A stretch of DNA of 64,000 nt from Megamerina dolium. Lineage: Eukaryota > Arthropoda > Insecta > Diptera > Megamerinidae. The first letter of the stretch is position 1, and each line of letters begins with the position of its first letter. The stretch spans positions 57,719,855-57,783,854 of the forward strand of contig OY978525.1 of assembly GCA_963854835.1 (NCBI GenBank). Reading direction: 5' to 3'. This document shows, in pieces, positions 8,154-58,110 of the stretch. The translations under genes were made by a program, and so were the position numbers. The notes under the pieces are model-generated. The model was given only the letters and a program-made list of their open reading frames with translations, was not told the origin of the DNA and did no database searches.

Positions 8154-8166
8154 AAGAGGAGGGCAG
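8154..8166 (+). promoter_or_regulatory. Polypurine tract of copy A
   Basis: AAGAGGAGGGCAG lies directly against the 3' LTR. Plus-strand DNA synthesis normally starts from such a tract. The reverse complement is present at 16032-16044 in copy B. Confidence 0.75.
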
Positions 8167-8604
8167 TGTAACGAGTATCGATAGTTTTTTACTCATCACT
8201 ATTGTGACTGACACTATTGGCAGCATCGACATGAATGTCAACAAAAAGAAATAAGCGATAACCAGAACAAGCCAACAAGAAAGGAAGAGAAGAATCTCGA
8301 TAAAGGAAGATTCTGGGGTGTTGCCAACAGAGTATAAATAGAGCCAGTGTTGAGCAGTGAGAATCAATCTAATTCCGAACGTGATTGCGAAAACATTGAT
8401 ACAGAGGCAAAAGTTGCAAGTACATTAGAGTGTTATTGTAAATAGTTGATTATAAACAGAGTTGATTGTAAATAGTGTTTATTAAATAAATTGTTGCTAT
8501 ATATAGTTGTATAAAATAAGTGTTGCAGTTATTATTAACAAAATCCAGTGATCGAACAAGGTAATTCAAATAGAATTAAACGCTCACAGAATAAAAACGT
8601 AACA
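8167..8604 (+). repeat. 3' LTR of copy A
   Basis: 438 bp, differing from the 5' LTR by GG to TT near position 20 and one G to A near the 3' end. It is followed by the ATAT duplication at 8605-8608. Confidence 0.92.
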
Positions 8605-8608
8605 ATAT

Positions 8609-16984: not shown

Positions 16985-17281
16985 TGCACATTGCTTACAC
17001 TTCCGAATCCAATCAGCGACATGGTCATGACATCCAACCCAATAGAATCGTTTCTTTATTTTCTAGACGGTTTTGGTGATTCCCAAATGCCCTCCACTGG
17101 AGGCATTGTGATACTCAGCTATCACTTCATTTATTCTCGCCTTGGGTACCACTAGAAGATCATTAGTGATTTTTCCATCCTCACTTTCCCATGCTCGGAA
17201 TAAACATCCGTCTCGTAAGTGCAGGCTTTGCCACTGCGCCCAGTATGCCTTTGCTATTGGACTCTCATTAGCCATTTCTTG

Positions 17282-19201: not shown

Positions 19202-19650
19202 TCCGCTTGTAACCGATGTTCAATGGTAGTTCGACATTTGCATAGCGCAGTATCCGTTGATTTAAATCTGACGTAAATCCGTTGTCAATCATAAAATAAA
19301 CACCAATTATTACGTCATCGATGATGTCAGCCACAATGAATTCATGTTCCCACGTGTAATTTCCAATAGATACTCGTTTCTTTATCTTACCCAGAATTTG
19401 TGCATCTTCACCCGTTGCTGTACGCAATTTTATTCCCATTAAAGGCTCTTTACCAAATCGCTCTTGATTATAGAATGTGATGCACCAGTGTCCAGGGTTA
19501 ACATGAATTCCATATTGTCCAATTTTCCATCAATAGTCAAGCTGCTTGGCACACGCTGTAGTTGTGAAATGTGAATGATGGGGCAACCCACTGTTGGAGT
19601 CGGTTCACGCCCCGCTGAACTGACTCGATTTAGTTTAACGATGGACTTGT
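19107..19650 (-). pseudogene. pol: Protease of copy B
   Basis: 19439-19107 carries the C-terminal half (MGIKLRTATGED, EFIVADIIDDVIIGV). The active-site half (TLDTGAS) lies upstream in another frame, at about 19505-19480. The frame break at AAGAGCCTTTAATGG is the same as in copy A, so it was inherited by both. It is either an ancestral lesion or a recoding site. Confidence 0.82.
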
Positions 19651-19955
19651 GTTAGTGCAGCGATCGCTATCCACCTTATTCTCCTTCTTTTGTCTTCCTG
19701 GAGAATTGGATCTTGATCGCTTTCGTCGTAAACGGCAGTCACGCGTCATGTGTCCTGATTTGTCGCAAACAAAGCACTTACCAGTAAATTTGTTTTAGCG
19801 TCGACCTGTTGTTCTTCCTTCAGGCTGAACTACTGATTTTACTGCCTGACGCACTGCTTCAACCAGATCTGTATCAGTTGTACCTGTTTCTAATTGGTGT
19901 ACCCGTGGCATTGGTCGACACATGAAACTGGCGGCTTCAAACGTCAAGGCACTAC
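19651..19955 (-). pseudogene. gag: Gag C-terminus of copy B fused to an LTR fragment
   Basis: The minus strand reads the gag zinc-knuckle region: the CFVCDKSGHMTRDC equivalent near 19770-19730, then a basic tail. Small indels disrupt the frame. At about 19955 it joins the first ~50 bp of the 5' LTR, ending in the motif GACTGACACTA, through a deletion corresponding to copy A 3131-4520. Confidence 0.8.
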
Positions 19956-20018
19956 TAGTGTCAGTCACAATAGTGATGAGTAACCAACTATCGATACTCG
20001 TTACAATATTAAAGTTAT

Positions 20019-26875: not shown

Positions 26876-28085
26876 GTTGTATAAAACAATCTATCGCCTT
26901 CTGAGAAAAAAAAATCATGGAATGACCTAAATATGTCTTCTGTGGATCTCTTTTCCTCAATATTTAAGTTTGGGTCTAGCTTAATTATTTCTAATCTATG
27001 GTATCCCTTTCGTGGTTAACCATTTTCTTAACGCTATTTTTTTTGTAGTCTATGTCGTATACTATGTGTTCAGAATGATTCAACTTAATTATATTTATTT
27101 TCAGCTCTTTATTTACAATATACGAATCCGTATTCGTGTTGAGCATTGGGAAATACACTGTGTTATCACACTGCCTAATGTCTCCCCTAAGTATATTCCA
27201 GGAAATTCTTCCTGTTTCTATACTGCCGTCATAATTATCCCAGGCACTACAAAGTCACTGTTGTGGAGTACTTGATTAACCTCGTTCAACGATTTGAGAG
27301 GTATAGTCAACAAATGAACAACATCAGCTTCTTTTTCATAGTATTGAGGACCGATCGGTTCCATGAATTGTCTCTTCTTAGAATACAATCTGCAAGTATC
27401 CTACTCTCTTCAGATATTAATTGTATTTCCAAACTCAAATCCTTAGTCCTCTCATGTTGGATTGTGTTGTGCCTTACCATGCGACACCATGAACTCTCCT
27501 TATATAACTGATTTTCTAGGACTCACCTCTTTTATTCTGCTTCTGTTTCCTGCAGATCCTCTTTCACAACACAATTATTTTTCAACAATTATAAAGTTTC
27601 CTTTTCACAGTATGGTTTTTATTCATTTCCATAAAGTAGTTTTTCTTTCACACAAAGTAGCTCTTACTCGACTATATAAAAATCCTTTATGATATAACTT
27701 TTATTTTTGTAAGATATTAAATCCTTTACAACATAACTTTTGTTTTTGTAGGATATTAAATCCTTTACAACATAACTTTTGTTTTTGTAGGATTTAAAAT
27801 CCTTTCACAATGTACACTTAGTAGTAAGCACGCACTAAACTCGCTCTTCGAGATATCTTATTGCACTAGATTAACTAACTCACTGACTGCCTTTTTTCAG
27901 GCCTTCCTTTAGTTTATATAGCCTCAAATATATTACATAATTTACAATTTAACCCCGTTTTTGAATAATAAGAAAATGCAATTTCTTAAGTAGGTCGATT
28001 CATTGCAATTTCTTCAGTAGGTCATAATTATAACTTATTTTTAGTAAGTCATCATTATTATTTGTAGTTAATACTTCATGCGTTC
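26876..28085 (-). mobile_element. Family-2 gypsy deletion derivative: pol scrap fused to LTR
   Basis: 26876-27490 aligns with the protease-RT spacer of family-2 copy C (40623-39990), in the same orientation. From about 27500 it jumps to the family-2 LTR (compare 42597-43090), so gag, the primer site and part of the LTR are missing. The LTR part is expanded by a tandem repeat and ends at 28085. Confidence 0.8.
27683..27805. repeat. Three ~39-bp tandem repeats inside a family-2 LTR
   Basis: Units begin AAATCCTTTA and contain ACATAACTTTTGTTTTTGTA; the first unit differs at several bases. Other family-2 LTRs carry fewer copies of this motif, so the array expanded here. Confidence 0.82.
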
Positions 28086-36999: not shown

Positions 37000-37212
37000 C
37001 TGCTTACTCCCCGAGACGCTATAAAAGCCATTCGGACTGCTAGCAAGATCTTAACGACTGACCAGGAATCGTAGTAAACTACTTTCAACCTGTGCGTCGT
37101 AGGTAGTACTTAGTTTACGTGCTGGACTATGGCACAGTCTTTCATATGCCATGTTCCAGCTCATATTAAACCGCTACACCACGACAAGGTGACTACCAAA
37201 GAAGGTGATAAA
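37000..37212. other. Unassigned spacer with a TATAAAA motif
   Basis: CTATAAAAGCC at about 37020 is the only signal. No ORF or repeat match. Confidence 0.35.
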
Positions 37213-37304
37213 ATAACATAATGATAATAGAAATATTACTGTAACATTTGTAGTGAGTCAAAATGCATAAATTAGCATTATTTTGACTCACAACATCCCT
37301 CCAC
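37213..37304 (-). repeat. Truncated 3' LTR and polypurine tract of copy C
   Basis: The LTR start, TGTTGTGAGTCAAAATAATG on the minus strand, is preceded by GGGTGGAGGGA (polypurine tract, 37305-37315). The same tract precedes the LTR at 56243. Only ~90 bp of LTR remain. Confidence 0.85.
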
Positions 37305-39056: not shown

Positions 39057-39912
39057 TTATATAATTTTACTTTTAGACAAACGGTTTTCATGTGCATTGT
39101 ATATAATGTAAGTCTTATTCACCTTGTGATAGAACTGCCCCCAGGCTTCATTGCTGGCATCTCTTGTCAGTACAAAGGGTTCTGAAGAATCTGAATATAC
39201 TAAAATTGGGGGAGAGCAAATTCCCTCCCTTAAATCTTCAAAAGCTTTCTGGCATTTATCGGTCCATTCAAATTTTGCGTCTTTCCTCAGCAACTTATTA
39301 ATTGGTAACGCCATGCCTGCCATATTTTCAACAAACTTTCGAATGCCTAAACGTCATTCTTATTTCTTGGAACAGGAATATTTTTGACACATTCTATCTT
39401 ACTGGAATCTGGCAATGCCCCTTTCTTAGTGCACTTATGACTTAGGAAATTATCTCTTTTCCCAAAAACTGGCACTTCCCTGTGTTTAGTTTTAAGTTAT
39501 GTTTACGTAAGAGTTCAAACAATCTCCCCACACATGACACATGACGGAATTTGACACATGTTGTGTCAAATTCCGTCCATAGACAACAATATCATCCAAA
39601 TACACAAAACAATCTATTCCCTGAAGTCCAGTCAACACATGATTCATTAATCTTTGAAAAGTAGCAGGTTAAACCGTTAACCCGAAAGGCATTCTATATA
39701 ATGCCCGACATCTGAACTAAAAGCGGTTTTTCTCTGTCAGATCCTTCCATTAGAATTTGATGATATCCATCTAGTCTCCATTTCTTCTTTCCATCGCTTC
39801 CCGCCTTCTTTGGAACTAATATTATTGGTGAATTCCATGGGAAAGAACTGGGAACGATTATTTCATCGTCCAACATTTTATTTACCTGACTATTAATATC
39901 CTCCTTATGCAC
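39057..39912 (-). pseudogene. pol: RT and RNase H of copy C, with deletions
   Basis: 39912-39694 starts with HKEDINSQVNKMLDD and PWNSPIILVPKKAG, then skips motif A through a ~100-bp deletion that joins to GYHQILMEG. The YLDD region near 39590 is readable (CFVYLD) but is followed by a small inverted duplication. The thumb/RNase H start at 39323-39118 (FEWTDKCQKAFEDL, FVLTRDASNEA, whose third position is R) then jumps to the pol-env spacer. Integrase is deleted. Confidence 0.82.
39543..39577. repeat. Perfect 15-bp inverted repeat with 5-nt loop
   Basis: The left arm GACGGAATTTGACAC (39543-39557) and right arm GTGTCAAATTCCGTC (39563-39577) flank ATGTT. Copy D has only one arm-like sequence here, so the second arm arose in copy C. 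Confidence 0.9.
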
Positions 39913-40054
39913 TTCTGGTAACCTAATTTACTGGTGCCTGATCTGCCTTTACTGGTATCGTGTGCTTTATGCCTGTTATGTAAGACAATTTATCGCCTTC
40001 CAAATAAAACAAATCGTGAAATGACTTGAAGATGTCTTCCATCGATTTTCTTTC

Positions 40055-41069
40055 TTACATATTTAGGTTTGAATCTAACTTAACCGTTTCTAATATTTTA
40101 GTAACCCTCTTGTAATTACTCTTTTCCCTAATGCTATTTATTTTAGAAACTGTATCATGCTCTATATGCTCTATATGATTGAATATAACTATATTAATTC
40201 TCATATCGTTATACACAGTATACGATTTCGTATTTGTATTCAGTATTGGTACATAAACTTTATTATTTGTGACACATCCCAATGTCTCACCTAAGAATAT
40301 CCCGGGAGAAACTTCTTGTTTTTCCACTATAACCGTTTCCAAATCAGTGTTTACATTCAAGGGAACTATCCTCATAGTTCTCCCTGGTACTACAATCTCA
40401 CTGTTGTAGAGTACTCTATTAGCCTCGTTCAATGATTTGAGAGGTAAAGTCATTAAATGCTGTTTTCGCTCATCGAAAAAAATCAGCCTCTTTTTCATTG
40501 TATTGAGAATCGATCGGTTCCATAAATTGTCTCGTCCTAGGATACCATCTGCAGGTATCCCTCTCTCTTCAGATATTATATGTAATTCTAAATTCAATTC
40601 ATTCAATTCATTAGTCTTGGCCCTAACGTGGTATCAAATCCTCCGAATGCACCACTAAGATTTTTCTTAGAATTCCCTTTCTGCTAACGTTTTTGTTAAT
40701 TACTGTTGATTTTACTAAACTGGTATCTGCCCCAGAGTCTACAAGTAAACTGAGTTTTCCATTTTTTGCTTCCTCACACGGAAACTCAATGAACACATAA
40801 TCTACATCAGAGATTCCAAAACAATAACCACGATTGCTATCACTGGATGCGAAAGAAGGGGTAACAATCCCTCTGGACGCTTGACTACCAACTTCCACCA
40901 TCCTACTACCTGACGTGGAGGGTGTGTCAACAATCTTTAAAGACGCATGAATGACACCTTCCATTTCATTTGGCCTATCTTTAGCAAAATTTTGGGGTTC
41001 CCGGTTTATTGGCCGTACCTGGGCCCCCCGTAGTTTCCCTGAGTAGGCCCTACATTTTCCTAGCTTCAC
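40055..41069 (-). pseudogene. pol: Protease region of copy C
   Basis: 41069-40623 contains LSLLVDSGADTSLVKS, the retroviral-type aspartic protease active site (DSGA). 40606-40055 continues with ERGIPADGILGRDN (the flap/helix region), then the linker toward RT. A frame change separates them at about 40615, at the same place as in copy D. The linker ends at a stop shared with copy D. Confidence 0.85.
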
Positions 41070-42441
41070 TTACTATGGCCTGTTTTTGGAGTATAATTCC
41101 CTTGCGGCTTTGAATTGTTTGTGAATGACGTACAAGATAGATTGAACTCATGCCCATATTGCTTACATTTTATACAGAAGTGTGTATTTTTCGTTTTAAA
41201 ACATTCGTCCCTTGTGTGTCCCTTCTTGTAGCAGAAGGAACAGGTAGGAACTTTCCTTTGGCCGTTTTGAGGATTTTCTTTATGCTTTGAGTACTGATTT
41301 GCCTTAAATGGCACTTTATTATTTCTCGTTTTGGTGGAACGCTACTATGTTACCTGTTTGGTTTTGGGAATCTTCATAAGAATTTAATAAGGTATTGAGA
41401 CCTACATTGGCTCCCACGTTAAGTGTGTAGTGCTGTTGCCCTCTGTTGAGCAGGATATTCGACCTCTCTAGCTCCTGCAGTAGTCCTCGGTCTTCTTTTC
41501 CCCCATATATGGTTTTGACACAGTGAGTTGCTGCGGTTTTCAATTCGTCTAATCTCCTGGCGAACGCTCTTATGCTTTCTTGTAGTCATTGCCGTGCAAA
41601 CTGGATTTGGTGAGTGATGGGTTCTAGATGGGCTATTTTCAGATATGTGTTTCTTAGAAGTCTATATAATTCTTCCGAATTGGCAAATTTTTTCGCCAAT
41701 ACCAAATTAAACTCATCTCCGTACAGACGTTGCTTTATACAGGATATGAAATCTTCCAACTCATCTGGTATGATTCCTTTGCTGGCTAATTTACACCCAG
41801 CATAAATTGGTGGACTTCCGTTCTCACATCTTTTGACTCAGCTCCAGTGAGTACTGGAACTAGTCTACTAACCATCTGCGCTATCTCGTCTATTTGCATT
41901 TTTTCCGTTGTTTGTGGCTGCGAGTTCGTAAGTATCTTACAGGTGTATGGCGGAGATGAGGTGTATTTTCTGCTAAACTGCGTTCTCTCTTAAGATTCCT
42001 TACTTGGGCCTGGAGGGCGCTTAATTGCTCAGTGTCCACGGAGGTTCTGAGTCTCTTTTCTATAAATTCCTCGGAAATATTTCTCTCCTTAAGAAATCTT
42101 TCTAACTCCTGATTCCTTCTGTGGAATTCTACGTTCTTTGCTTCTAGTTGTTCAGCTTCCAACCATTGGTTTACAATTCTTAATCTGAGGTTTATTATTT
42201 GTATCTCCGCTGCATCCAAATTGTCCTTTACAACTAAACTTGCTTCACCCTGTGTTTCTAAAAGGTTCCTTAATTCTGTTAATGTAGCATCTAGTTCCTC
42301 ACCTGGTGCTACTACTTTGCCGTGCTGCACTTTCGATTTCATGAGCTCGTATTGCTCGTAAGTACTATGTTTCGTAATTAAATCCCACACGAAAGTGGTG
42401 GCTTCCTGAATTGCAATATTTGAGGAGATACAAACCTCCAT
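41066..42441 (-). pseudogene. gag: gag of copy C
   Basis: 42441-41890 encodes 183 residues, mostly coiled-coil (LLETQGEASLVVKDNLDA, LEAEQLEAKNVEF), identical to copy D in translation. Then come stops at about 41790 and 41590, a further piece at 41543-41319 (NILLNRGQQHYTLNV), and two zinc knuckles in 41314-41066: CSFCYKKGHTRDEC (CX2CX4HX4C) and CIKCKQYGHEFNLSC (last spacing 5 instead of 4). The same breaks occur in copy D. Confidence 0.85.
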
Positions 42442-42575
42442 CAGATGTTATCCTGGAACACAAATCTATATTTATGCGCTAGGGAACAATGGAATCCTAA
42501 TACTGCGTTAAACGTTTAACGTAAAATATCTTGTCTTACAAGATACTTCGCAGTATCCTACCGGCTGCGCCAAAA

Positions 42576-43435
42576 TGTTGCGTCCTTCCTCGATTCTTCT
42601 CAGATAACTTAATTTTTAGGACTAACCTCATTTATTCTGCTTCTGTTTCCTGCAAACACAATTAATTTTCACAGTTATTAAGTTTTTCTCTTCACAATAT
42701 AGTTTTTATTGATTTCCGTTAATTAGTTTCTCTTTCACAATGCGTTTTCAAGTTCACGGGATATTAAATTCTTTACAATACAACTTTTGTTTCACTGGAT
42801 ATTAAATCCTTTCACAGTGTACACTCAATAGCAAACACGCGCTAACTCGCTCTTCGAGTTATCTTAATACACTTGCTTATCTAACTCATTGACTGCATTC
42901 ATTTCAGGTCTTGTCTTAGTTTATATAGCCTAAAATATATATCATAATTTACAATTTAACCCCATTTTAGTATAAACGTTTTCTGAAGAAATGGCCATAT
43001 CTTAAGTAGGTCAATTCATTGCAATTTCTTCAGTAGATCATATTTATAACTTATTTTTAGTAAGTCGTCATTATTATTTGTAGTTAATACTTCTTGTTGT
43101 AAATATTGTGCATGCGTTCAATATTATGTATGCCTGGTTGTTGCTTATTTTGTTTTTCTTTTTGGCTTTTGTTATCTTTTCACTGTGTATGGTTGTTGAA
43201 TTATTTCATAATCATATAGCGAGGTACGATTACGCTGACCACGCATTTTTATAAATATATTACAACACATTTTAGCCAATTATAATTACATTATGCATAG
43301 TGTGTTGATTATCATTAATTAATGGTTACAGTAAATACACATAATAAAATAACATAACGATAATAATAGTATTACTATAAAATTTGTAGTGAGTCAAAAT
43401 GCATAAATTAGATGAGCATTATTTGACTCACAACA
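42576..43435 (-). repeat. 5' LTR of copy C
   Basis: 860 bp, TGTTG...CAACA on the sense strand. The primer site TGGCGCAGCCGGTAGGAT (tRNA-Ser type) is at 42555-42572, read on the minus strand. The outer edge is followed by GTAT (43436-43439). Confidence 0.92.
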
Positions 43436-43967
43436 GTATCGACGAGAGGTCGGTGGACACATACACTGATACCTAATATAAAATTTTGGATCGATACGAA
43501 ACATGGAGAGGTTCATTACCACCTGACCCAGTTCCTCAGTGGCCATGGATGCTTTAGAGAATATTTGTATAAATTCAAACACGAGGATGACCCGTGGTGT
43601 CTCTATTGCAAGCACGAAATCGAGAACGCACAACACGTGCTATTGAAATGCGTCAGGATTGAAAGTGAACGCTCCCAACTTGAACGGTTAATGCTACAAA
43701 CGTTATCACCGGAGGGACTAATCCAATGCATGCTCTCCTCGAAAGAAGCATGGGGAACGTCAGCAGACATCATTACAAGAATGATGTAAAGATTACGACG
43801 TGATGAACAGCAACACTACCAGAAATAGCGGAGAGGGAATAGAACTCAAAATCCGGCCTTGCGAAGGAATGCCTTGACTATGGGTACCGCAAGAATGAGC
43901 AGGACAGTGATATCGGGGAAGGTCTATTAAAATTTCCACAATCGAGCGTATCGAAGCAAAAAAAAAA
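43436..43967 (+). pseudogene. R1-type LINE 3' end: C-terminal zinc-finger region with poly(A)
   Basis: The frame from 43436 is open: VSTRGRWTHTLIPNIKFW, then HGEVHYHLTQFLSGHGCFREYL, then the CCHC-like finger WCLYCKHEIENAQHVLLKC, ending at the TAA near 43787. The 3' UTR ends in a short poly(A) at about 43958-43967. This is the terminal part of ORF2 in R1-clade LINEs. Its upstream continuation lies inverted at 57104 and beyond. Confidence 0.88.
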
Positions 43968-44699
43968 CATTAATTGCATAAATGAGCATGCAAATCTGTA
44001 ATATCAATAAATTAATACATTTTTGTTTTTATTGTTTAATGAATAAATATGCATAGTTACCGAAATCCCAATAAACAAATAATCATTTGAATGAAATGTC
44101 AAATGTATGGTGAAATGAAATTAATGATGTATATAGAACTGTAAAATGTTAATAATATTTTACTCATACGAACTATTTACAAGTGATACGAGTAAATCCT
44201 GTATACAATACAATTTACGTAAAGGTATTAATGTATTTCTTAAGTATATTTAAGTAAAATTTGCAAAAGTTTTTTTCGGTTAATAAATTTATGCATAAAT
44301 TTTAATCTAAATGCAACAATGCAGTAAAATCCATTCACCACTAATGGTGTGTTTCGATTTTCACGGGTCTAAAAATAGGTTCTTAATAACACTACACGGC
44401 AGAAAAAAAGTATCTAAAAAGTATATTTTCTAGCCTAAGTTTGGCCAGCTAAAAAAGAAAAGGGCATTCATTTATTTTCCAAAGGCATGTTTTTGACATA
44501 TTCGCGAAAAACGTGATTTTATGCACTCTTTTTGGTTCGTGGCAAAAATCTCGAAAACGATTTATCCATATAATATGATTGGCACATCATTCAAAAGTTA
44601 TAGTCTTCTTCAACCATGTGCCGCCTGTGTTGATTGGATTAAATTTGCGATGAATGAAAAAATGAGACTAAATCTTTCCGGCCGGGTAGCTTCCTCCTT
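43968..44699. other. AT-rich unassigned spacer
   Basis: No convincing ORF or repeat. The ORF at 44521-44709 has no recognisable motif. Confidence 0.4.
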
Positions 44700-45420
44700 G
44701 CTTTGTTAGCTTCTTTCTGCTTAAATATATGGAGGGAGTACTGGCGTACTACACTGAAACGGCCCTGCACGAACTCGTTCGCGTAGCGGAGAGAGAACTG
44801 CCTTGTGGAGGGATATCTATGCCTACTTTTATGGATATAAAAGGTGCCTTCGATAAGATTGGATTCGATTAGCTAAGAGTGGCCCTTGCTACTCGTGAAG
44901 TCAGCGCAACCATTATAAGGTGGGTGGACAGCATGCTGAGAAAAAGGGCAATAAACTTTTAAAATGGGAGTTACAGACTCAGAGGTAGGGTAGTCAAAGG
45001 GTGTCCACAGGGGGCGTATTGTCGCCCATCCTTTGGAACATCACGGTCGATTCCCTACTCCAGCTTCTGGACTCAAAAGGCATACACACCATCGGGTAGG
45101 CAGATGACATAGCGATAACGGTGAGCGGTAAGTTCCTGGACACTATTTTTGATACCATGAGAGGTGCACTCAAAATTGATGAAGAATGGTGCACGGAACA
45201 AGGTCTCTCTGTAAATGCTAGTAAGTCGGAAGCAGTACTCTTTACTAAAAGGAGGACTGGGCTAACAATAGACCCCCTTAAGCATTTTGGATCGAATATC
45301 AACGTCTCCAAGGAAGTAAAGTATCTAAGTGTCATCCTGGATAACAAGCTTGGAATAGTCACGTCGGGTATTGCATCAGTGTAAGAGAGTGTTCGGTCTC
45401 CTGTGGGGAATTACTCCCAG
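44700..45420 (+). pseudogene. R1/LOA-group LINE reverse transcriptase fragment
   Basis: Reads TETALHELVRVAERELP, then MPTFMDIKGAFDKIGFD (motif A), KGCPQG(G) with a frame slip, LLQLLDSKGIHTIG*ADDIAITV (stop in place of the YADD Tyr), and EVKYLSVILDNKL. It ends KRVFGLLWGITPS, where the LTR of copy D begins. Several stops. Confidence 0.82.
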
Positions 45421-46376
45421 TGTTGTGAGTCAAAATAATGCTCATCTAATTTATGCATTTTGACTCAGTACAAATGTTATAGTAATATTATTATTATGTG
45501 TAACCATTAATTAATGATATTCAACATACTATGCATAATGTAATTATCATTGGCTAAAATGGGTTGCAGTATAATTATAAAAATGCGTAGTCAGCGTTAT
45601 CGTACTTCACTGTATGATTGTTGAACAATTTCACAATCATGAAAAACAAAGAACGAAGAAGAAAAAATAATTAATAAACAATAAATAAAATAATAAACAA
45701 TAAAAAAAGAACCAACGGGTCATCGTACCTCGCTATATGATTATGAAATAATTCAACAACCATACACAGTGAAAAGATAACAAAAGCCAAAAAGAAAAAC
45801 AAAATAAGCAACAACCAGACATACATAATATTGAACGCATGCACAATATTTACAACAAGAAGTATTAACTACAAATAATAATGACGACTTACTAAAAATA
45901 AGTTATAAATATGACCTACTGAAGAAATTGCAATGAATTGACCTACTTAAGATATTGCCATTTCTTCAGAAAACGTTTATACTAAAATGGGGTTAAATTG
46001 TAAATTATGATATATATTTTAGGCTATATAAACTAAGACAAGATCTGAAATGAATGCAGTTAGTGAGTTAGATAAGCAAGTGGATTAAGATAACTCGAAG
46101 AGTGAGTTAGCGCGTGTTTGTTATTGAGTGTACACTGTGAAAGGATTTAATATCCAGTGAAACAAAAGTTGTATTGTAAAGAATTTAATATCCCGTGAAC
46201 TTGAAAACGCATTGTGAAAGAGAAACTAATTAACGGAAATCAATAAAAACTATATTGTGAAGAGAAAAACTTAATAACTGTGAAAATTAATTGTGTTTGC
46301 AGGAAACAGAAGCAGAATAAATGAGGTTAGTCCTAGAAATTAAGTTATCTGAGAAGAGTCGAGGAAGGACGCAACA
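45421..46376 (+). repeat. 5' LTR of copy D
   Basis: 956 bp, about 95 bp longer than the other family-2 LTRs because of an A-rich insertion/partial duplication at about 45596-45730. A TATATAAA box is at 46025-46032. The edges are TGTTG and CAACA. Confidence 0.9.
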
Positions 46377-46379
46377 TTT

Positions 46380-46446
46380 TGGCGCAGCCGGTAGGATACT
46401 GCGAAGTATCTTGTAAGACAAGATATTTTACGTTAAACGTTTAACG
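46380..46446 (+). promoter_or_regulatory. Primer site followed by a chain of stem-loops
   Basis: TGGCGCAGCCGGTAGGAT (46380-46397) is the tRNA-Ser-type primer site known from 17.6/297-like elements. It overlaps GATACT-GCGA-AGTATC (46395-46410, GNRA loop), then ATCTTGT-AAG-ACAAGAT (46408-46424), then the perfect 16-bp palindrome CGTTAAACGTTTAACG (46431-46446). The same series is in copy C. A packaging or dimerisation role is inferred from position only. Confidence 0.65.
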
Positions 46447-46510
46447 CAGTATTAGGATTCCATTGTTCCCTAGGGCATAAATATAGATTTGTGTTCCAGG
46501 ATAACATCTG

Positions 46511-47886
46511 ATGGAGGTTTGTATCTCCTCAAATATTGCAATTCAGGAAGCCACCACTTTCGTGTGGGATTTAATTACGAAACATAGTACTTACGAGCAA
46601 TACGAGCTCATGAAATCAAAAGTGCAGCACGGCAAAGTAGTAGCACCAGGTGAGGAACTAGATGCTACATTAACAGAATTAAGGAACCTTTTAGAAACAC
46701 AGGGTGAAGCAAGTTTAGTTGTAAAGGACAATTTGGATGCAGCGGAGATACAAATAATAAACCTCAGATTAAGAATTGTAAACCAATGGTTGGAAGCTGA
46801 ACAACTAGAAGCAAAGAACGTAGAATTCCACAGAAGGAATCAGGAGTTAGAAAGATTTCTTAAGGAGAGAAATATTTCCGAGGAATTTATAGAAAAGAGA
46901 CTCAGAACCTCCGTGGACACTGAGCAATTAAGCGCCCTCCAGGCCCAAGTAAGGAATCTTAAGAGAGAACGCAGTTTAGCAGAAAATACACCTCATCTCC
47001 GCCATACACCTGTAAGATACTTACGAACTCGCAGCCACAAACAACGGAAAAAATGCAAATAGACGAGATAGCGCAGATGGTTAGTAGACTAGTTCCAGTA
47101 CTCACTGGAGCTGAGTCAAAAGATGTGAGAACGGAAGTCCACCAATTTATGCTGGGTGTAAATTAGCCAGCAAAGGAATCATACCAGATGAGTTGGAAGA
47201 TTTCATATCCTGTATAAAGCAACGTCTGTACGGAGATGAGTTTAATTTGGTATTGGCGAAAAAATTTGCCAATTTGGAAGAATTATATAGACTTCTAAGA
47301 AACACATATCTGAAAATAGCCCATCTAGAACCCATCACTCACCAAATCCAGTTTGCACGGCAATGACTACAAGAAAGCATAAGAGCGTTCGCCAGGAGAT
47401 TAGACGAATTGAAAACCGCCGCAACTCACTGTGTCAAAACCATATATGGGGGAAAAGAAGACCGAGCACTACTGCAGGAGCTAGAGAGGTCGAATATCCT
47501 GCTCAACAGAGGGCAACAGCACTACACACTTAACGTGGGAGCCAATGTAGGTCTCAATACCTTATTAAATTCTTATGAAGATTCCCAAAACCAAACAGGT
47601 AACATAGTAGCGTTCCACCAAAACGAGAAATAATAAAGTGCCATTTAAGGCAAATCAGTACTCAAAGCATAAAGAAAATCCTCAAAACGGCCAAAGGAAA
47701 GTTCCTACCTGTTCCTTCTGCTACAAGAAGGGACACACAAGGGACGAATGTTTTAAAAGGAAAAATACACACTTCTGTATAAAATGTAAGCAATATGGGC
47801 ATGAGTTCAATCTATCTTGTACGTCATTCACAAACAATTCAAAGCCGCAAGGGAATTATACTCCAAAAACAGGCCATAGTAAGTGA
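46511..47886 (+). pseudogene. gag: gag of copy D
   Basis: 46511-47062 is the 183-codon coiled-coil segment. Capsid-like codons follow in broken frames: PDELEDFISCIKQRLYGDE near 47190, then a TAG at about 47164-47166 and a TGA near 47364. A piece follows at 47409-47633, then two zinc knuckles in 47638-47886 (CSFCYKKGHTRDEC; CIKCKQYGHEFNLSC). The breaks coincide with those of copy C, so they predate the separation of the copies or were spread by conversion. Confidence 0.85.
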
Positions 47887-49029
47887 AGCCAGGAAAATGT
47901 AGGGCCTACTCAGGGAAACTACGGGGGGCCCAGGTACGGCCAATAAACCGGGAACCCCAAAATTTTGCTAAAGATAGGCCAAATGAAATGGAAGGTGTCA
48001 TTCATGCGTCTTTAAAGATTGTTGACACACCCTCCACGTCAGGTAGTAGGATGGTGGAAGTTGGTAGTCAAGCGTCCAGAGGGATTGTTACCCCTTCTTT
48101 CGCATCCAGTGATAGCAATCGTGGTTATTGTTTTGGAATCTCTGATGTAGATTATGTGTTCATTGAGTTTCCGTGTGAGGAAGCAAAAAATGGAAAACTT
48201 AGTTTACTTGTAGACTCTGGGGCAGATACCAGTTTAGTAAAATCAACAGTAATTAACAAAAACGTTAGCAGAAAGGGAATTCTAAGAAAAATCTTAGTGG
48301 TGCATTCGGAGGATTTGATACCACGTTAGGGCCAAGACTAATGAATTGAATGAATTGAATTTAGAATTACATATAATATCTGAAGAGAGAGGGATACCTG
48401 CAGATGGTATCCTAGGACGAGACAATTTATGGAATAGATCGATTCTCAATACAATGAAAAAGAGGCTGATTTTTTTCGATGAGCGAAAACAGCATTTAAT
48501 GACTTTACCTCTCAAATCATTGAACGAGGCTAATAGAGTACTCTACAACAGTGAGATTGTAGTACCAGGGAGAACTATGAGGATAGTTCCCTTGAATGTA
48601 AACACTGATTTGGAAACGGTTATAGTGGAAAAACAAGAAGTTTCTCCCGGGATATTCTTAGGTGAGACATTGGGATGTGTCACAAATAATAAAGTTTATG
48701 TACCAATACTGAATACAAATACGAAATCGTATACTGTGTATAACGATATGAGAATTAATATAGTTATATTCAATCATATAGAGCGTATAGAGCATGATAC
48801 AGTTTCTAAAATAAATAGCATTAGGGAAAAGAGTAATTACAAGAGGGTTACTAAAATATTAGAAACGGTTAAGTTAGATTCAAACCTAAATATGGAAGAA
48901 AGAAAATCGATGGAAGACATCTTCAAGTCATTTCACGATTTGTTTTATTTGGAAGGCGATAAATTGTCTTACATAACAGGCATAAAGCACACGATACCAG
49001 TAAAGGCAGATCAGGCACCAGTAAATTAG
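47883..49029 (+). pseudogene. pol: Protease and linker of copy D
   Basis: 47883-48329 includes LSLLVDSGADTSLVKS (aspartic protease). 48346-49029 continues with ERGIPADGILGRDN and the linker to RT (LEGDKLSYITGIKH). Protease matures the polyprotein in the particle. The frame break near 48335 and the TAG at 49027-49029 are shared with copy C. Confidence 0.85.
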
Positions 49030-50178
49030 GTTACCAGAAGTGCATAAGGAGGATATTAATAGTCAGGTAAATAAAATGTTGGATGATGAAATAATCGTTC
49101 CCAGTTCATTCCCATGGAATTCACCAATAATATTAGTCCCAAAGAAGGCGGGAAGCGATGGAAAGAAGAAATGAAGACTAGTTATTAAACAGATTTTTAC
49201 AATTCCACGCATCAATGAGATATTGGATCAGTTAGGTCATAGTAGATATTTTACTACACTTGATATGGCCAGTGGATTTCATCAAGTGCTAATGGAAGAG
49301 TTTGACAGAGAAAAAACCGCTTTTAGTTCAGGTGTAGGGTATTACGAATTTAATAAAATGCCTTTTACGTTAACGGGAGCACCTGCTACTTTTCAAAGAC
49401 TAATGAATCATGTATTGACTGGACTCCAGGGAATAGATTGTTTTGTATAGTGGGTGCCGTAGCTCAGTGGTTAGTGTGTTCGCCTTCTGATCTGTAGGTC
49501 GTGGTTCAATCCCCGGCTGATGCATAACAAATTTAATATCGATAAGATTTTTCTTTCGAACGGTACCCACCTGTCGGAAAGCAATTGGCAATTCTTCCGA
49601 CAGTAACAACTTGCCATGAAAAAGCTTCTTAAAGAACTCTGTGACAAAGCTCAGAAAAAGTGATGTAACAAGTGTTCTGCCGTTCGGAACCGGCTAAAAT
49701 AATTAGGTCCCTTCTAATATTGTCCAAAAATTTAAGACGAACAACAGTAATGGAAGAGAAGCTCGGCCAATGATCCCTTTGGGGCTTTAAGTGCCACATA
49801 TTTATTTTTTTTTTTTATAGTTGGATGACATTTTTGTCTACGGTCGGAATTTGGCACAACATGAATCGCGTTTGCGGAGAGTATTTGAACTCTTACGTAA
49901 ACATAACTTAAAACTAAATACAGAGAAGTGCCAGGAAAGATGTTCTGGCATTCTTAAGTTTAGTGAACTATTATAGAAAGTTTGTTGAAAATATGGGAAG
50001 CATAGCGCTACCAATTAATAAATTACTAAGAAAAGATGCAAAATTTGAATGGACCGATAAATGCCAGAAAGCTTTTAAAAATTTGAAGGAGGCAATTTGC
50101 TCCCCACCAATTTTAGCATATCCAGATTTTTCCGAACCTTTTGTGCTGACCAATAGCCTTTGCGAGCAGAGCGCTTAG
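49030..50178 (+). pseudogene. pol: RT and start of RNase H of copy D, split by a SINE
   Basis: PWNSPIILVPKKAG is followed by a frame slip. 49223-49450 reads YFTTLDMASGFHQV (motif A) and NKMPFTLTGAPATFQRLMN, ending GIDCFV at the SINE. After the SINE the frame continues LDDIFVYGRNLAQHE, so the insertion falls in the catalytic Y/LDD codons. A deletion follows near 49945, then NYYRKFVENMGS (thumb) and FEWTDKCQKAFKNL; the RNase H start ends in a stop near 50178. Confidence 0.85.
49451..49815 (+). mobile_element. Full-length tRNA-derived SINE, copy 3
   Basis: The head GGGTGCCGTAGCTCAGTGG includes the A box (TAGCTCAGTGG, 49460-49470). The B box GGTTCAATCCC is at 49503-49513. The ~300-bp body matches copies 1 and 2 and ends GTGCCACATATTTATT plus a T run. 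A likely 5-bp duplication TATAG lies at 49446-49450 and 49816-49820. The tRNA-like fold lacks a matching 3' acceptor arm, so this is not a tRNA gene. Confidence 0.88.
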
Positions 50179-50212
50179 TGATACTGAGAAAAGATATTCC
50201 ACGTGGCGATTA

Positions 50213-50728
50213 TTGGCGATCGTGTGGGCTTTAAATTATAGATCTTATGTACTCGGTAGACCATTCAAAGTCTACACTGACCATCAGCCCTTACGTGGAA
50301 TTGCCAATCTGAAAGACCAGACATCTCGCTTGGCACGTTTCAGACACAAATTATCTGAATTTGATTTTGAAATAATTTATAAACCAAGCAAACGGAACTT
50401 GAACGCGGATGCGCTCAGCAGAGTTCCACAACCGAATCAAGAGCCTACAATGGTTGTGACTCGTTCTATGGCGAGGAATAAAGTCGACAAGACCGAAAGC
50501 CAAGAAGAGCCTGAAGAAAGCTCTGGTGACGAGTTAGAACTAGATGAAAATGCAGAAAATCAGGAGAACAATAATGCGGAACTTCTCACTGATGAAAAGG
50601 ATATATTGACGATACTTCGCAACTTCCACAATTCACCTTTAGGAGGACATCAGTGTGCTCTGAAAACTTATTTCAGGATTAGAAGACAGTATAGGTGGAA
50701 AGGTATGAGAAGCCAAATTAAGGAATAA
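50213..50728 (+). pseudogene. pol: RNase H and integrase zinc finger of copy D
   Basis: Starts MAIVWALNYRSYVLGRPF, then TDHQPLRGI, RLARFRHKLSEFDFEI and LNADALSRV: the C-terminal RNase H. An acidic spacer (SQEEPEESSGDELE) leads into the integrase finger (FHNSPLGGH, RRQYRWKGM). The stop at 50726-50728 interrupts before the Cys pair (KNCQTNK...), which follows in a repeated AAATTGT context. Confidence 0.85.
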
Positions 50729-50780
50729 GTTAAAAATTGTTAAAAATTGTCAAACTAACAAGAGCTCGAGGCTCACGAAA

Positions 50781-51630
50781 ATGCCAATGATATTAACTGC
50801 TACACCATCTAAGCCATTTGAAAAGGTATATATGGACATGGTAGGAATTCTTCCAGAGACAACATCTTTAAATAAATACATACTTACATTTCAAGATGAT
50901 TTTTCCAAATTTTTTATTTGTGTAGCTATACCAGATGAAGCTAGCACAGTAGCAAAAGCGTTTTACAACGAAGTTATTGCGCGTTATAACATACCAGAAA
51001 TATTAGTGACTGATAATGGTACGAATTTTACTTCGAAATTGTTTTCCGCTACATGCAAGAAGCTGGGTGTTAAAAAATTACATATAACACCGTACCATCC
51101 ACAAGCAAATGGTTCTTTAGAAAGGAGCCACAGACCTTTAGCAGAATATCTTAGGAGTTTTGTTAAAGAAGATGGGTCTAATTGGGACCAATGGTTAGCA
51201 TCAGCAATGCACGTACACAATAACACCATACATACTTCGACAAAACGGACACCATTTAGTGTTCTATACGGTTTCAATATCGATATGCCGACAAACTTAA
51301 AAACAAAAAGATCACCTAAATACAATGCAGATTATCAAAATAAGGTATTAAAATACCAACTACAAAGGTCACATGAGTTAGTGAGGGAAAATCAGCACAA
51401 AGAATAGAAATTAGCTAAAATTCAATACGACATAGGAATCCACCTAATAATTTTTAAAATAGGTGATAAAGTATTGTTGAGAAATCAGACTAGGAAAAAT
51501 AAATTTAGTCCCATCTGGACTGGACCATATGAAGTGATACATGTGGACAGTCCAGTAACGACAACTCTCAAAGTCGGACAAAATGGTAAAAAGTGCCATA
51601 ATAATTTACTAAAACATTTTTATCAATAAG
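50781..51630 (+). pseudogene. pol: Integrase of copy D: complete DDE core and GPY domain
   Basis: YMDMVGILPE (first Asp), VTDNGTNFTSK (second Asp) and NGSLERSHRPLAEYL (Glu) are all present, and the core is open over 208 codons (50781-51407). After a TAG the frame resumes with YDIGIHLIIFKIGDKVLL and the GPY/F module IWTGPYEVIHVD, ending NLLKHFYQ at about 51628. Integrase inserts the cDNA. This core looks intact, but no start codon links it to Pol. Confidence 0.88.
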
Positions 51631-51724
51631 TAATAATAGTGGATACTCATGAGCATGGGCGAATTAATTAGTCAAGCATTTCAAGCAATCAAATAGTTAA
51701 ATTCGAGTTAGTATAGAAATATAT

Positions 51725-52161
51725 TGTAACGAGTATCGATAGTTGGTTACTCATCACTATTGGACTGACACTATTGGCAGCATCGAAACGAATGTCAACA
51801 AAAATAAATAAGTAATAACCAGAACAAGCCAACGAGAAAGAAAGAGAAGAATCTCGATAAAGGAAGATTCTGGGGTGTTGCCAACAGAGTATAAATAGAG
51901 CCAGTGTTGAGAAGTAAGAATCAATCGAATTCCGAACGTGACTGCGCAAACATCTATACAGAGGCAAAAGTTGCTAGTACATTAAAGTGTTATTGTAAAT
52001 AGTTGATTATAAACAGAGTTGATTGTAAATAGAGTTTATTAAATGAATTGTTGCTGTATATAGTTGTATAAAATAAGTGTTGCAGTTATTATTAACAGAA
52101 TCCAGTGATCGAACAAGGTAATTCAAATAGAATTAAACGCTCACAGAATAAAAACGTAACA
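51725..52161 (+). repeat. Solo family-1 LTR inside copy D
   Basis: 437 bp, TGTAAC...GTAACA, flanked by ATAT at 51721-51724 and 52162-52165. It lies just beyond the pol stop of copy D. Confidence 0.93.
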
Positions 52162-52165
52162 ATAT

Positions 52166-53439
52166 AGTGTAGGAAATCGTTATAAAAAATAGGTCAGCAA
52201 TATCAATAGGAGACAAACGTTATAGAATAAATGGAGAGAATTAACATGACGGGTTACCATTCCGTCTTCTACGGTCTGAGATGAAAATATACACAATCGA
52301 ATAGCGCAGAAAAGTTGGTTATTGCAACAGAAGGAAAATAGAACGTTATTGTCGAATTATACAATATGTAAAACAACGATGCATATCCCAAGTTTTAAAT
52401 TTTTAGAAAGATAAATTAATAAAACTTACATTATATACAATATACATAAAAACCGTTTAAAGTAAAATTAAAAACTTTGTAAAAACATAACAACTACAAA
52501 TTTTATAAAACAAAAGTCTAATTTATAAGAATGTACTACAACAATTATGTAGATGTAATTATGAAAAATAAATGTAAATGTAGACATTGTACAAAATAAT
52601 TGAATAGGTATATTACTGGTAATCTCGCCATCTCAAGGAGAGGAGAACGTTGACACAGTAGAAAGACAACTTATCCAGCAAGGTTAAGACACACCGGAAA
52701 AGATTTATACAGCGATTTAGTGGAGACCAAATAGGTAATCGAGTTGAAGTTACATACATATACATAAGTTCCAATATCCTGAACCAAGTGCTACAGCGTT
52801 AAATAAAGTCAACAGAATTAGCAGCATTCTCATGAAATACTTGGACTGTTCGATATATAGCAGCAGCAATACACAGTGTGTACATACAAGACTCATGTGT
52901 TATGTTTTTATCTGGATAGTGAACGCCTATAATTGACTCAGTTGTCGGGCATTTGACAATGGGTTACAGGGTATCAGGGTATACAGGGTATATATGGTTA
53001 TATCTTAGCGGTGTTGCATATAAAAAAATCACACTGCAAGATCTTGTTCATTCATTGAATGCGGTATGTTGAGATAAAATGTACATACCAGACAATACAC
53101 GTGCATTGAGCTTCCAATTTTTAAATAATGCTGAAGTATAAACATTGCAAAGATAAGCATTTAATAAGCAGATTAAATCGTCAGTCACACGAGTATAAAA
53201 AGGAGACACGATAACACCTCAACAATGCTGATGCTACAATGGAGTAACAACAACATTGATGCTACAAAGGAGTAATGCAATAACCATTCAAACGTTGGAC
53301 ACCACGATATATCACGGTGAGCAAGAAATCTACGTGGTATACAACAGTAGCACCGATGAAAAAGAAAAAAAATTAGTCCTACAACTCAGCCAATTACAAC
53401 AATGGTCAACATCACACCTGAAAACGCAAAGATAAAAGA
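52166..53439 (+). other. Pol-env spacer and degraded env region of copy D
   Basis: 52415-52550 aligns with 39115-38985 of copy C. The remainder has no long frame. By position it should contain env, but I cannot read a conserved segment. GGGTATCAGGG and GGGTATACAGGGTATATA at about 52967-52995 form a small repeat. Confidence 0.5.
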
Positions 53440-53636
53440 GTGCAGTGCAGCGAACTAAATTCTACATTCCAAATAAATCCACTTCGACACATTAAATCAG
53501 TTTCAACATCGAGAACAAAATATAAAGCAACAGCGGAATTAACAAGAACTTCTTCTAATCACAGTACAACAGAAGAAAGCGGCTCAACAGAAACAGAGAA
53601 CCAAGAAAATCAGCATCCGAAGAGGTAGATTGCTAG
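53440..53636 (+). pseudogene. env: Env C-terminal tail remnant of copy D
   Basis: Reads INPLRHIKSVSTSRTKYKA and a Ser/Thr/Glu-rich end (STTEESGSTETENQ). It aligns in DNA with 37400-37560 of copy C, just downstream of the membrane span there. The upstream ectodomain and membrane segment are absent. Confidence 0.55.
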
Positions 53637-53681
53637 TAGAAGTTAATATGTTATAAAGATAGGTATAAAATATTAAGATGC

Positions 53682-56174
53682 ACATATAAATACATAATAA
53701 TACTGTCCTCTAAGATACAGTATTACCAAACAGCAATATAAAGAATTTTTCTCAACTCTTGGTAGCAAATTCTTGGTTGCTAGCGATTTCAACGCCAAAC
53801 ACACTCACTGGGGCTCCCGCTTAATAACTCCAAAAGGCAGAAGACCACTAACCACGGCTACGATGTTATTTCAAATGGTCAACCGACATATTGGCCGACG
53901 GACAAGAGGAAGATACCCGATCTCATAGACTTTGGAGTCGCCAAAGGTTTGCAGATGGAAAATATCTCCACAGAGTGTAATTATGATCTATCATCTGACC
54001 ACTCACCCACGGTAATATCTATAAAATCACCAAGCCCCCAAAGCAATTGCGTTAGAAAGAAAATAGACTGGTTGAAATTTAAGAAATATATAAATTCCCA
54101 TCTTCCTCTAAGTACTGTATTAAGAAATGGACACGTTGTAGACTCAGCACTCGAAAAATTCAACCAGCTGCTCTCATTAGCTCTCAGCTCAGCCACCTGC
54201 ACAAGGGTATGCAAGCAATCAAACTATAGCCCATACACACCAGCTGACATTGAATTGCTAGTAAGACAGCAAATAAGACTCCGAAGGCAATGGCAGGAAT
54301 TCAGATCACCGAATCTGAAAACACAGCTACAGCATTGTACTCGAAAGTTAAAGCAAGCCTTAAAAATAAAAACAACAAAGAGTTAGAAGAGCACATAGCC
54401 AAATTAACACCTGGTGAAGCGTCAGACTACTCTTTGTGGAAATCAGCAAAAAACTCAAATCGGCCAATTCTCAATGATTCCCTCATCCGTTTGAGTGACG
54501 GTAATTGGGCTAGAAGCAATTGTGAGAAGGGCTTGGCTTTTCCAGACCACCTAAAAAGTGTATTTACACCCAATCCACCCTCTTCACAGTCCTCATTACC
54601 AAAATTAACTTCTCAACCTTGCTCAATAACGCTCAAAATTAAAAAAAGGACATATTCAAAGCAATTTATAAAGATTTAAACCCAAAAAAATCACCTGGTC
54701 CAGATAAAATTACCGGTAAAATGATAAAAGAGCTACCTCCGGCTTCAGTAATTCATCTCATGCACATTTTCAATGCTATCCTTCGTGTTAAACACTATCC
54801 CAAATCCTGGAAAACTTCAAATATTATTATGATAGCAAAACCAGGAAAAGACCCTACAAAAGTTGCATCGTACAGACCTATCAGCCTCCTGCATCTACTC
54901 TCGAAAGTATTCGAAAAGCTACTTGTCATGAATATAACTCCATTTATTAATCTCAATCAACTGATTCCCCAACATCAGTTTGGATTTAGAAAACAGCACG
55001 GCACAATAGAACAAGTCCACCGCATTGTAACTCTGAGAAGGAACACTTTTGAAGAAAAAAAGTATTGCTCAGCTGTCTTTCTTGATATTACTCAAGCTTT
55101 CGATAAAGTATGGCACGATAGCCTTATTTACAAACTCAAACTATTACTGCCTGCAAATGTCTCCTCATTGCTTAGTAGCTACCTCACGAAAAGACAATTT
55201 CTCGTACATCACAAGGATTACACAACAAATCCATTGGATATTCACGCTGGTGTTCCTCAGGGAAGCGTTTTGGGCCCCTTACTCTATCTCTTATACACTA
55301 CAGATATGCCCTCAATAACTATACATTTATATCGACCTTTGCAGATGATACGGCAATATTGTGCTCTCGCTCTAACCCCATAGAAGCTACTAAACTCCTG
55401 CAGACTCATATCGATTCTCTCAAAATCTGGCTAGCAAGATGGCGTATAAAAGTCAATGAATCAAAGAGCGTACATGTAACCTTCACGCTAAGGCCAGATA
55501 CATGTCCCCCACTTAAAATTAATGGCCAATCAGTTCCACAATGTTCCTCAACAAAGTACTTGGGTACTCACCTCGACAGAAGGCTGACCTGGAAAAATCA
55601 CATAGAGGCACAGAAAACTCAGATCAAGCTTAAAATTAATCAGTTATGGTGGCTGATACACAAAAGATCAAAGTTGAATCTCGAATACAAAGTGCTATTA
55701 TATAAAGCAATCCTGAAGCCAATCTGGACTTATGGTATTCAGTTTTGGGGCACCGCATCTCCCTCAAATATCGAAAAATTGCAGCGAATACAATCCAAGT
55801 GTCTGCGAATTATTGTAAACGCGCCTTGGTATATGAGGAACGTTAACATCCATCGAGATTTAAATGTACCCACAATTTCTGAGGAAGTTGCAATGTCTTG
55901 CAGAAGCTACATTCAAAAATTACACAGTCATCCGAATCCCCTTGCTAGGCAATTGTTGCTGAGCACGGGGCATCGTCGATTAAAAAGAAAAGACACACTG
56001 AATATGCTGTGAAATTGCTATACCTCGCGACTCAACAAATTGCGATGGAACGTAGGGAATATCACATAATTTTTAGTTAGTTTGTAAGATTTGAATACTT
56101 ATTGTTAGTTTCTAAGTATTTTAGAAAGATTCAATAAAAAAACTTATTTAACAAAAAAAAAACATGTAAATACA
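53682..56174 (+). mobile_element. Jockey-clade LINE inserted in copy D, 5'-truncated
   Basis: The element spans 53695-56161 and ends in a poly(A) run (about 56152-56161). It is flanked by a 13-bp duplication with one mismatch, ACAT(A/G)TAAATACA (53682-53694 and 56162-56174). It starts within the endonuclease, so ORF1 is absent. Confidence 0.87.
53700..56012 (+). pseudogene. Jockey ORF2: partial endonuclease, reverse transcriptase, C-terminus
   Basis: Endonuclease part: QQYKEFFSTLGSKFLVASDFN, then DLIDFGVAKGL and SSDHSP (53735-54000). The linker 53949-54386 and 54290-54679 are in different frames. RT (54721-55383) has VASYRPISLLHLLSKVFEK, FGFRKQHGTIEQ, AVFLDITQAFDKVWH and GVPQGSVLGPLLY. The catalytic FADDT falls at the frame change near 55335-55360. 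55359-56012 holds WRIKVNESKSVHVTF, GIQFWGTAS and NAPWYMRN and ends naturally at 56010-56012. About four frameshifts inactivate it. Confidence 0.87.
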
Positions 56175-56231
56175 CAGCATATACGTTTTAAAACCAAATA
56201 TTTCACCTAAACAATTTGTAAATTCAATAAT

Positions 56232-57103
56232 GGGTGGAGGGATGTTGTAAGTCAAGTAATGCTCATCTAATATATGCATTTTGACTCACTACAAATTTTA
56301 TAGTAATACTAATATTATCGTTATGTTATTTTATTATGTGTATTTACTGTAACCATTAATTAATGATAATCAACACACTATGCATAATGTAATTATAATT
56401 GGCTAAAATGGGTTGTAATATATTTATAAAAATGCGTGGTCAGCGTGATCGTACCTCGCTATATGATTATGAAATAATTCAACAACCATACACAGTGAAA
56501 AGATAACAAAAGCCAAAAAGAAAAACAAAATAAGCAACAACCAGGCATACATAATATTGAACGCATGCACAATATTTACAACAAGAAGTATTAACTACAA
56601 ATAATAATGACGACTTACTAAAAATAAGTTATAAATATGACCTACTGAAGAAATTGCAATGAATTGGCCTACTTAAGATATTGCCATTTCTTCAGAAAAC
56701 GTTTATACTAAAATGGGGTTAAATTGTAAATTATGATATATATTTTAGGCTATATAAACTAAGACAAGGCCTGAAATGAATGCAGTCAGTGAGTTAGTTA
56801 AGCAAGTGGATTAAGATAACTCGAAGAGCGAGTTAGCGCGTGTTTGCTATTGAATGTACACTGTGAAAGGATTTAATATCCTGTGAAACAAAAGTTGTAT
56901 TGTAAAGAATTTAATATCCTGTGAACTTGAAAACGCATTGTGAAAGAGAAACTAATTACCGGAAATCAATAAAATCTATATTGTGAAGAGAAAAACTTAA
57001 TAACTGTGAAAATTAATTTTGTTTGCAGGAAACAGAAGCAGAATAAAAGAGGTCAGTCCTAGAAATTAAGTTATCTGAGAAGAGTCGAAAGAACAACGCA
57101 ACA
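56232..57103 (+). repeat. Polypurine tract and 3' LTR of copy D
   Basis: GGGTGGAGGGA (56232-56242) precedes an 861-bp LTR (56243-57103; starts TGTTGTAAG, ends CGCAACA). It is closer in layout to the copy C LTR than to the 5' LTR of copy D. It is followed by ATAC at 57104-57107, the complement of GTAT at 43436-43439. Confidence 0.9.
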
Positions 57104-58110
57104 ATACATTCCATCTATATTTCCATACTCGTTCACTATGGCTAATTTTATTCTCTAATTTTATCCGCTCAGCCTGCGATAGTTTCTTATTATCGCGAAT
57201 TGACTGCGCTTGGGTTGCTATGATGTCAATAGGATATCGGCCCGCAATTAGATTCGCACATCATTAGAGGCTGTGCGAAATGCGCTACAAACACTTAGAG
57301 ATGATAATCTATATGCTGCTGTGATCCCTTTAATGTAAGACTTACAACCTGTCGCTGTAGCCCATACGGGTGCAACGTACTTTATTTTTGATGTGTTGAC
57401 GCCTGTGAGTAGATTCCTAATCGGTTGACGAGGTCCACCAAGGTTCGGCATGAGCCTCGATAATGCTGCACCAGCTTTTGCCGCGTTAACACCGGTATAT
57501 TTGAGGTGTTCTTTACAATTCAACCTACGGTCCGATAGGACTCCGAAGTATTTAATTTATGGACTGGAGAATATGATGTAGTTATCAACACGCACATCAA
57601 TATGCTCTACCTTCTTCCGGCTACCCAATACTGCTGGGGTTTTATGATCCGCCAGATCTAGTCCCGCAATCTCTAGTCATTGTGTAACACTTTTAATTGC
57701 TTTTACAGCGTTTCGTCTAAATTCTGGTAGGGTCTTTGCAACTACCGTGATAGCAATATCGTCTGCATACCCAAAGATATATACTCCTTTCAGCTTCTCT
57801 ATTTTAAGTTTACCGTTGTACACCTTAGAGTGCATGGATATGTAGAAGAGCATTTTGTGTACGGCCAATTTGCTGAACTAAAAGCATTTTTGATATCTAG
57901 GGTTACAACAGCACAGTATTCTTTACTGCCTTTCTGGCCTAAGTGTGTCCTCTCAGAGAGAGGGCATCCACATAACCTAAGCTAACCTAATGAACGATAG
58001 GACAACGGTTCATGCGGGGTTTATCGCGTTTAGGGATTAAGACAAGTGTTAGATGTTTCCACCGACGTGTAAATGACTCTTCTCCAAGTCGTTCGCATAG
58101 ACTGTCTGGC
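57104..58110 (-). pseudogene. R1-type LINE reverse transcriptase (upstream part, minus strand)
   Basis: Minus-strand order: GEESFTRRWKHLTLVLIPK (about 58090-58030), AVVTLDIKNAFSSANWP (motif A, about 57920-57870), a deletion, GYADDIAITVVAKTLPE (motif C, about 57780-57720), then the thumb/C-terminal region NLGGPRQPIRNLL, VAPVWATA and SVCSAFRTASND (57430-57250). After a frame slip it ends QAERIKLENK, then ERVWKYRWNV, at the LTR. RT lacks fingers sequence and carries stops. Confidence 0.85.

Follow-up and report, generated by a model that had tools for sequence, protein, structure and literature searches.

The 64,000-nucleotide stretch of the Megamerina dolium genome analyzed here (the window; C1:57719855-57783854 of a chromosome-scale, 500.5-Mb assembly in 8 contigs) contains two related gypsy-like long terminal repeat (LTR) retrotransposons, C and D, that lie in opposite orientation and adjoin the two halves of one interrupted R1-type long interspersed nuclear element (LINE). 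C runs on the minus strand. Its 5' LTR (42576-43435) lacks a 123-base stretch of the unique 3' (U3) region, and of its 3' LTR only the first 88 bases remain (37208-37295), the rest being cut away by a LINE on the left. D runs on the plus strand, from a 5' LTR (45421-46376), the inner part of which is 99% identical to C from position 45719 on, to a 3' LTR (56243-57103) that lacks the same 123 bases of U3 and is 96.9% identical to the C 5' LTR. The decayed 5' side of the R1-type LINE, R1a, occupies 57104-58088 on the minus strand (the part covered by local matches; the LINE extends further right), and the 3' side of the same LINE, R1b, occupies plus-strand positions 43436-43967, which include the final 117 residues of the frame and the beginning of the poly(A) tail. 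The reverse transcriptase part of a different LINE, LINE-c (44730-45420, plus strand), is cut at the D 5' LTR.

The two LTR edges that adjoin R1 lie exactly where the initial annotation of this locus had read them. The C 5' LTR ends at 43435 and is followed by GTAT (43436-43439, plus strand), from which the plus-strand R1 frame opens as VSTRGRWTHTLIPNIK... and stays open to 43786. The D 3' LTR ends at 57103 and is followed by ATAC (57104-57107; GTAT on the minus strand), where the minus-strand LINE frame ends in ...SERVWKYRWNV. With a single GTAT retained, the halves join in frame as WNVSTRGRWTH, again as annotated, and the open frame of an R1-type copy elsewhere in the genome, L041, reads WDASTKGRWTH at the same place. 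We measured this join as an offset projected onto R1 sequences of the same assembly, on a scale where -3 denotes an exact four-base overlap. With the window's own four loci (L001, L007, L016 and L046) excluded, the overlap was exact at 64 of 70 R1 loci and, once identical sequences had been merged, in 41 of the 46 distinct sequences in which both halves are present; the remaining five gave offsets of -2, -9, -9, -26 and -138. This agreement places the continuity of R1 across the two edges beyond chance and rules out a fortuitous alignment of the halves.

The two sequences with an offset of -9, L076 and L077, are the closest relatives of both R1 halves. In trees built separately for R1a and R1b (each restricted to sequences of 500-1,000 bases with more than 100 aligned columns), each half grouped with L076/L077, with a support of 0.82 for R1a and 0.65 for R1b, the latter by a small margin (10.7% distance versus 11.3% for the next locus). 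Because L076-L079 had been picked by their match to the R1a side, only the placement of R1b is an independent test. R1a matches R1 copies of the genome at 86-87% identity (alignments covering 179-897 of 897 bases), and R1b is mostly 85-88% identical to the main genomic copies, so that their divergence is about equal. The trees rule out an origin of the halves in clearly different R1 subfamilies, which the initial annotation, in proposing such alignments, had named as one of two findings that would tell against it.

The other end of D carries the second line of evidence. At insertion, an element has two matching LTRs. The D 5' LTR is flanked by CCAG (45417-45420, plus strand) within LINE-c, unlike the ATAC in R1 that flanks its 3' LTR, and both genomic copies of LINE-c that we read continue beyond CCAG. 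The outer U3 differs as well. In this part (175 columns), private changes number 11 in the D 5' LTR, four in the D 3' LTR and one in the C 5' LTR, and the 123-base gap is common to the latter two; in the inner LTR (657 columns) the corresponding numbers are 5, 14 and 6. The unlike outer U3 and the shared gap thus mark the outer 5' end of D as being of another lineage and place the C 5' end with the D 3' end. The mismatch between its two LTR edges, and between the flanks beside them, shows D to be chimeric. Its 3' part, from 51639 to 57103, reads as a single element once two later inserts are set aside: a solo LTR of another family with ATAT on both sides (51725-52163, plus strand) and a LINE with a reverse transcriptase domain and poly(A) near the D 3' end (53704-56168, plus strand). 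This follows from genomic copies that lack these inserts, namely L005, L006 and L008, all without the LINE, and L008 also without the solo LTR. D holds a further short repeat (49450-49815) that is absent from C.

Each LTR/flank junction was compared with the genome as a 301-base query, with only the best-scoring candidates aligned, so that the comparison is no full census. Among 41 matches to the left (C 5') junction (the best 40 of 559 candidates scored) and 40 matches to the right (D 3') junction (the best 40 of 225), only the window spans the join, and the second finding named against the initial annotation, that of either junction at another locus, did not appear. The D 5' edge is likewise spanned only by the window among 40 matches (the best 40 of 1,325), and of the others 18 match the LINE-c side and 21 the LTR side. 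We also fetched 17 further LTR starts of the family: five are 3' LTRs, recognizable by the polypurine tract, and the flanks of the other 12 are varied, ATAC occurring once (L087) and L093 and L094 agreeing; since one side was read, these are flanks and not proven duplications. In the window, ATAT stands on either side of element A and of two solo LTRs, which served as controls. The family does not appear to be tied to one target, and neither the junction searches nor the flank survey lends support to an insertion hotspot at the R1 base.

These data bear on the idea that two R1 copies were each struck independently at one and the same base, the surviving flanks being complementary by luck. The R1 family is large enough to invite it, with hundreds of copies (311 first-look genome candidates on the R1b side and 349 on the R1a side). 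Yet no other insertion of the family was seen at that R1 base among the scored matches, the varied flanks of other 5' LTR edges weigh against a repeated hit, both halves have the same nearest relatives, and the unlike LTR edges of D would be left unexplained. We therefore consider such a coincidence extremely improbable.

C and D also share a nearly identical inverted repeat. An arm of 3,463 bases in C (39771-43233, minus strand) pairs with one in D (45719-49181, plus strand) without a gap and with 28 mismatches (99.2% identity), and about 2.5 kb lie between the two arms. Identity drops abruptly at both ends of this alignment, at one end where the 123-base U3 difference lies and at the other where 91 bases are absent from C; past that point it is 83%. 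Within 701 bases of the arm, two sites distinguish C from D, whereas the next copy, E, is 96% identical and others are at most 93% identical (best 40 of 661 scored). Located 72 kb to the left on the chromosome that carries C, E (G000:C1:57689257) is the closest other relative of the arms among the scored matches. Arms closer to each other than to the rest of the family, with abrupt ends, are the pattern left by gene conversion between close inverted copies. Because the C 5' and D 3' LTRs differ by about 3% and the arms by 0.8%, the homogenization is probably younger than the insertion, if equal rates are assumed. Gene conversion between close inverted repeats is familiar, for example, from the arms of sex-chromosome palindromes; there, as here, inverted arms are far closer to each other than are their surroundings, whereas here the arms are two retrotransposons, a single pair in one genome.

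The edges, the R1 continuity and the arms can be assembled into one sequence of events. A first gypsy-like element would have inserted into the R1-type LINE and duplicated GTAT; a second, related element, oppositely oriented and some 2 kb distant, would have had its 5' end at CCAG within another LINE. When the inverted elements recombined, conversion would have made 3.46 kb of them nearly identical, and a crossover inside this tract or at its edge would have flipped the intervening segment. C would thereby have received the 5' end of the first element and probably the 3' end of the second, and D the 5' end of the second and the 3' end of the first. On balance we judge it likely that crossover and gene conversion between the inverted elements flipped the segment in this way; the crossover itself, and its order relative to the conversion, we infer from the edges and arms described above. 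The segment flipped would be at least 43436-45420 and at most 39771-49181, that is about 2 to 9.4 kb. The inversion that the initial annotation had proposed between C and D is thus supported, at a smaller size than the whole 13.7 kb that separates the R1 halves, which lie so far apart because most of D, with its later inserts, sits between them. The arms might even act as a recurrent flip-flop, in which conversion keeps them nearly identical, the 2-kb segment switches repeatedly and both orders segregate in the population, an extension that appears distinctly unlikely.

Several observations weigh against a crossover between C and D. The initial annotation had regarded both elements as chimeric; this holds for D, with its unlike LTR edges and flanks, and for C it comes down to three characters in the 88 bases left of its 3' LTR before the LINE begins. 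Across the 71 ungapped columns of this fragment, the C 5' and D 3' LTRs differ at four positions, D 5' and C 3' at four, C 5' and D 5' at three, C 5' and C 3' at five, D 3' and D 5' at seven, and D 3' and C 3' at eight. Summed over pairings, the exchanged arrangement costs 8 differences, pairing within copies 12 and the third way 11. Two informative sites and one indel, that is three of three characters, pair C 5' with D 3' and D 5' with C 3', and the little evidence in the C 3' fragment thus agrees with an exchange that would make C chimeric too. By distance alone, the C 5' and D 5' LTRs (3) are closer than either exchanged pair (4 and 4). Nor is mosaic structure by itself special, since mosaic members occur in this gypsy-like family in any case: E is 96% identical in the gag piece and only 78% in the LTR.

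The reciprocal flank is missing as well. Only the GTAT duplication can be paired; the second duplication, CCAG, is without a partner. DNA comparison did not locate the 3' half of LINE-c in the window, and when the whole genome was searched for an LTR end joined to CCAG and LINE-c (26 bases, at most 3 mismatches), the single match was an uninterrupted LINE copy. An LTR piece at 27493-28080 was considered as the remainder of the C 3' LTR and rejected, as it is joined to a LINE; E was considered as the carrier of the missing flank, and its 5' flank, at the end that was read, lies within another gypsy family. With this flank not found, the C 3' end replaced by a LINE and a related copy such as E (read at its 5' end) nearby, a different real rearrangement comes into view, whether by non-homologous inversion, through inverted duplication combined with loss, or by exchange involving a third copy. 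We regard these as very unlikely, since C and D are inverted, close and nearly identical just where a crossover is needed; for E in particular, its LTR is only 78% identical to the D 5' LTR and its 5' flank falls within a different gypsy family.

The last point on this side concerns the assembly. Nearly identical inverted arms around a short segment are a setting known for orientation errors in assemblies, and arms of 3,463 bases at 99.2% identity, about 2.5 kb apart, provide it: the true order could be the uninverted one, with the 2-kb segment laid the wrong way round, and every sign at the flanks and LTR edges would look identical. Against this stand the 28 differences between the arms, which can anchor accurate long reads, and the chromosome-scale quality of the assembly in its 8 contigs; moreover, the near identity of the arms would still call for gene conversion between C and D. 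Such an artefact is possible and, in our estimate, unlikely. The locus also carries a warning that an assembly may present others like it either way round, a question for the reads to settle.

A flip of the segment by recombination between C and D has a counterpart in the Galileo inversions of Drosophila buzzatii, which the published account explains by ectopic recombination (PMC2775673). For inversion 2z3, the marks given there are copies in opposite orientation, exchanged target duplications and chimeric copies (PMC2775673). At our locus, C (minus) and D (plus) bound the segment as inverted copies, with arms 99.2% identical; GTAT and ATAC pair with R1 continuity, and a partner for CCAG was not found; D is chimeric, and C weakly so (three of three informative characters in 88 bases). 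The likeness lies in two related inverted copies and, in part, in exchanged target duplications and chimeric structure. Galileo is a DNA transposon and its inversion chromosomal, whereas here LTR retrotransposons bound a flip of about 2 to 9.4 kb, one of two duplications pairs, a 3.46-kb tract is homogenized and the comparison is made within one assembly. Set beside Galileo, the proposed flip is a further, well-preserved case of a known process, now in LTR elements. A small literature search returned no title naming such an event between two inverted insect LTR elements. From a single genome, the locus would provide a base-exact record of how two LTR retrotransposons recombined in inverted orientation, in which the divergence of the arms (0.8%) and of the LTR ends of one insertion (about 3%) orders the events and the homogenized tract stops at unequal sequence on both sides.

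The interrupted LINE is of R1 type, as annotated, and belongs to a dispersed family, with copies on six of the eight contigs, several of them adjoining CA-rich stretches. No ribosomal RNA family matched in the 19 R1-type copies scanned with their flanks, and R1 in the sense of an element specific for 28S ribosomal DNA was not found among them. The L041 copy encodes Exo_endo_phos_2 and RVT_1 domains, that is an apurinic-type endonuclease and a reverse transcriptase; zf-RVT in R1b matched below the cut-off. By its domains and dispersal we take the family to resemble R1-clade LINEs such as Waldo, from which it differs in that its young copies have a 3' untranslated region (UTR) matching the Rfam R2 element. 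This match (RF00524, R2 RNA element) occurs in the 3' UTR of 18 of the 19 copies scanned (L017-L045), at 52-69 bits against a gathering threshold of 38, for example at L041:2702-2808, in the copy whose frame has the apurinic-type endonuclease domain. Most of the stretch is missing from the window's R1 copy, and the window as a whole had no match in an Rfam scan. That an R1-type LINE should carry an R2-like 3' end may merit separate study. L027 and L030 are two R1-type copies in tandem, within about 650 bases.

The LTRs of the C/D family begin with TGTTGT and end with GCAACA, followed by the primer site TGGCGCAGCCGGTAGGA, and D contains an integrase core domain. We presume a likeness to the 17.6/297-type gypsy elements of insects from these features (LTR ends, primer site, integrase core); a difference is that the four-base flanking words vary in the family here. 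Elsewhere in the window, a second inverted gypsy-type pair (4515-7896 and 16565-19956) reaches 94.7% identity over 3.4 kb; with ATAT on either side, element A (3081-8606) gives no sign of exchange at its edges. Further nested or recombined pieces occur on the minus strand: close to 29540, a LINE frame that includes reverse transcriptase abuts the 3' part of an RNase-H-type LINE, and this second LINE gives way near 28089 to a partial gypsy LTR.

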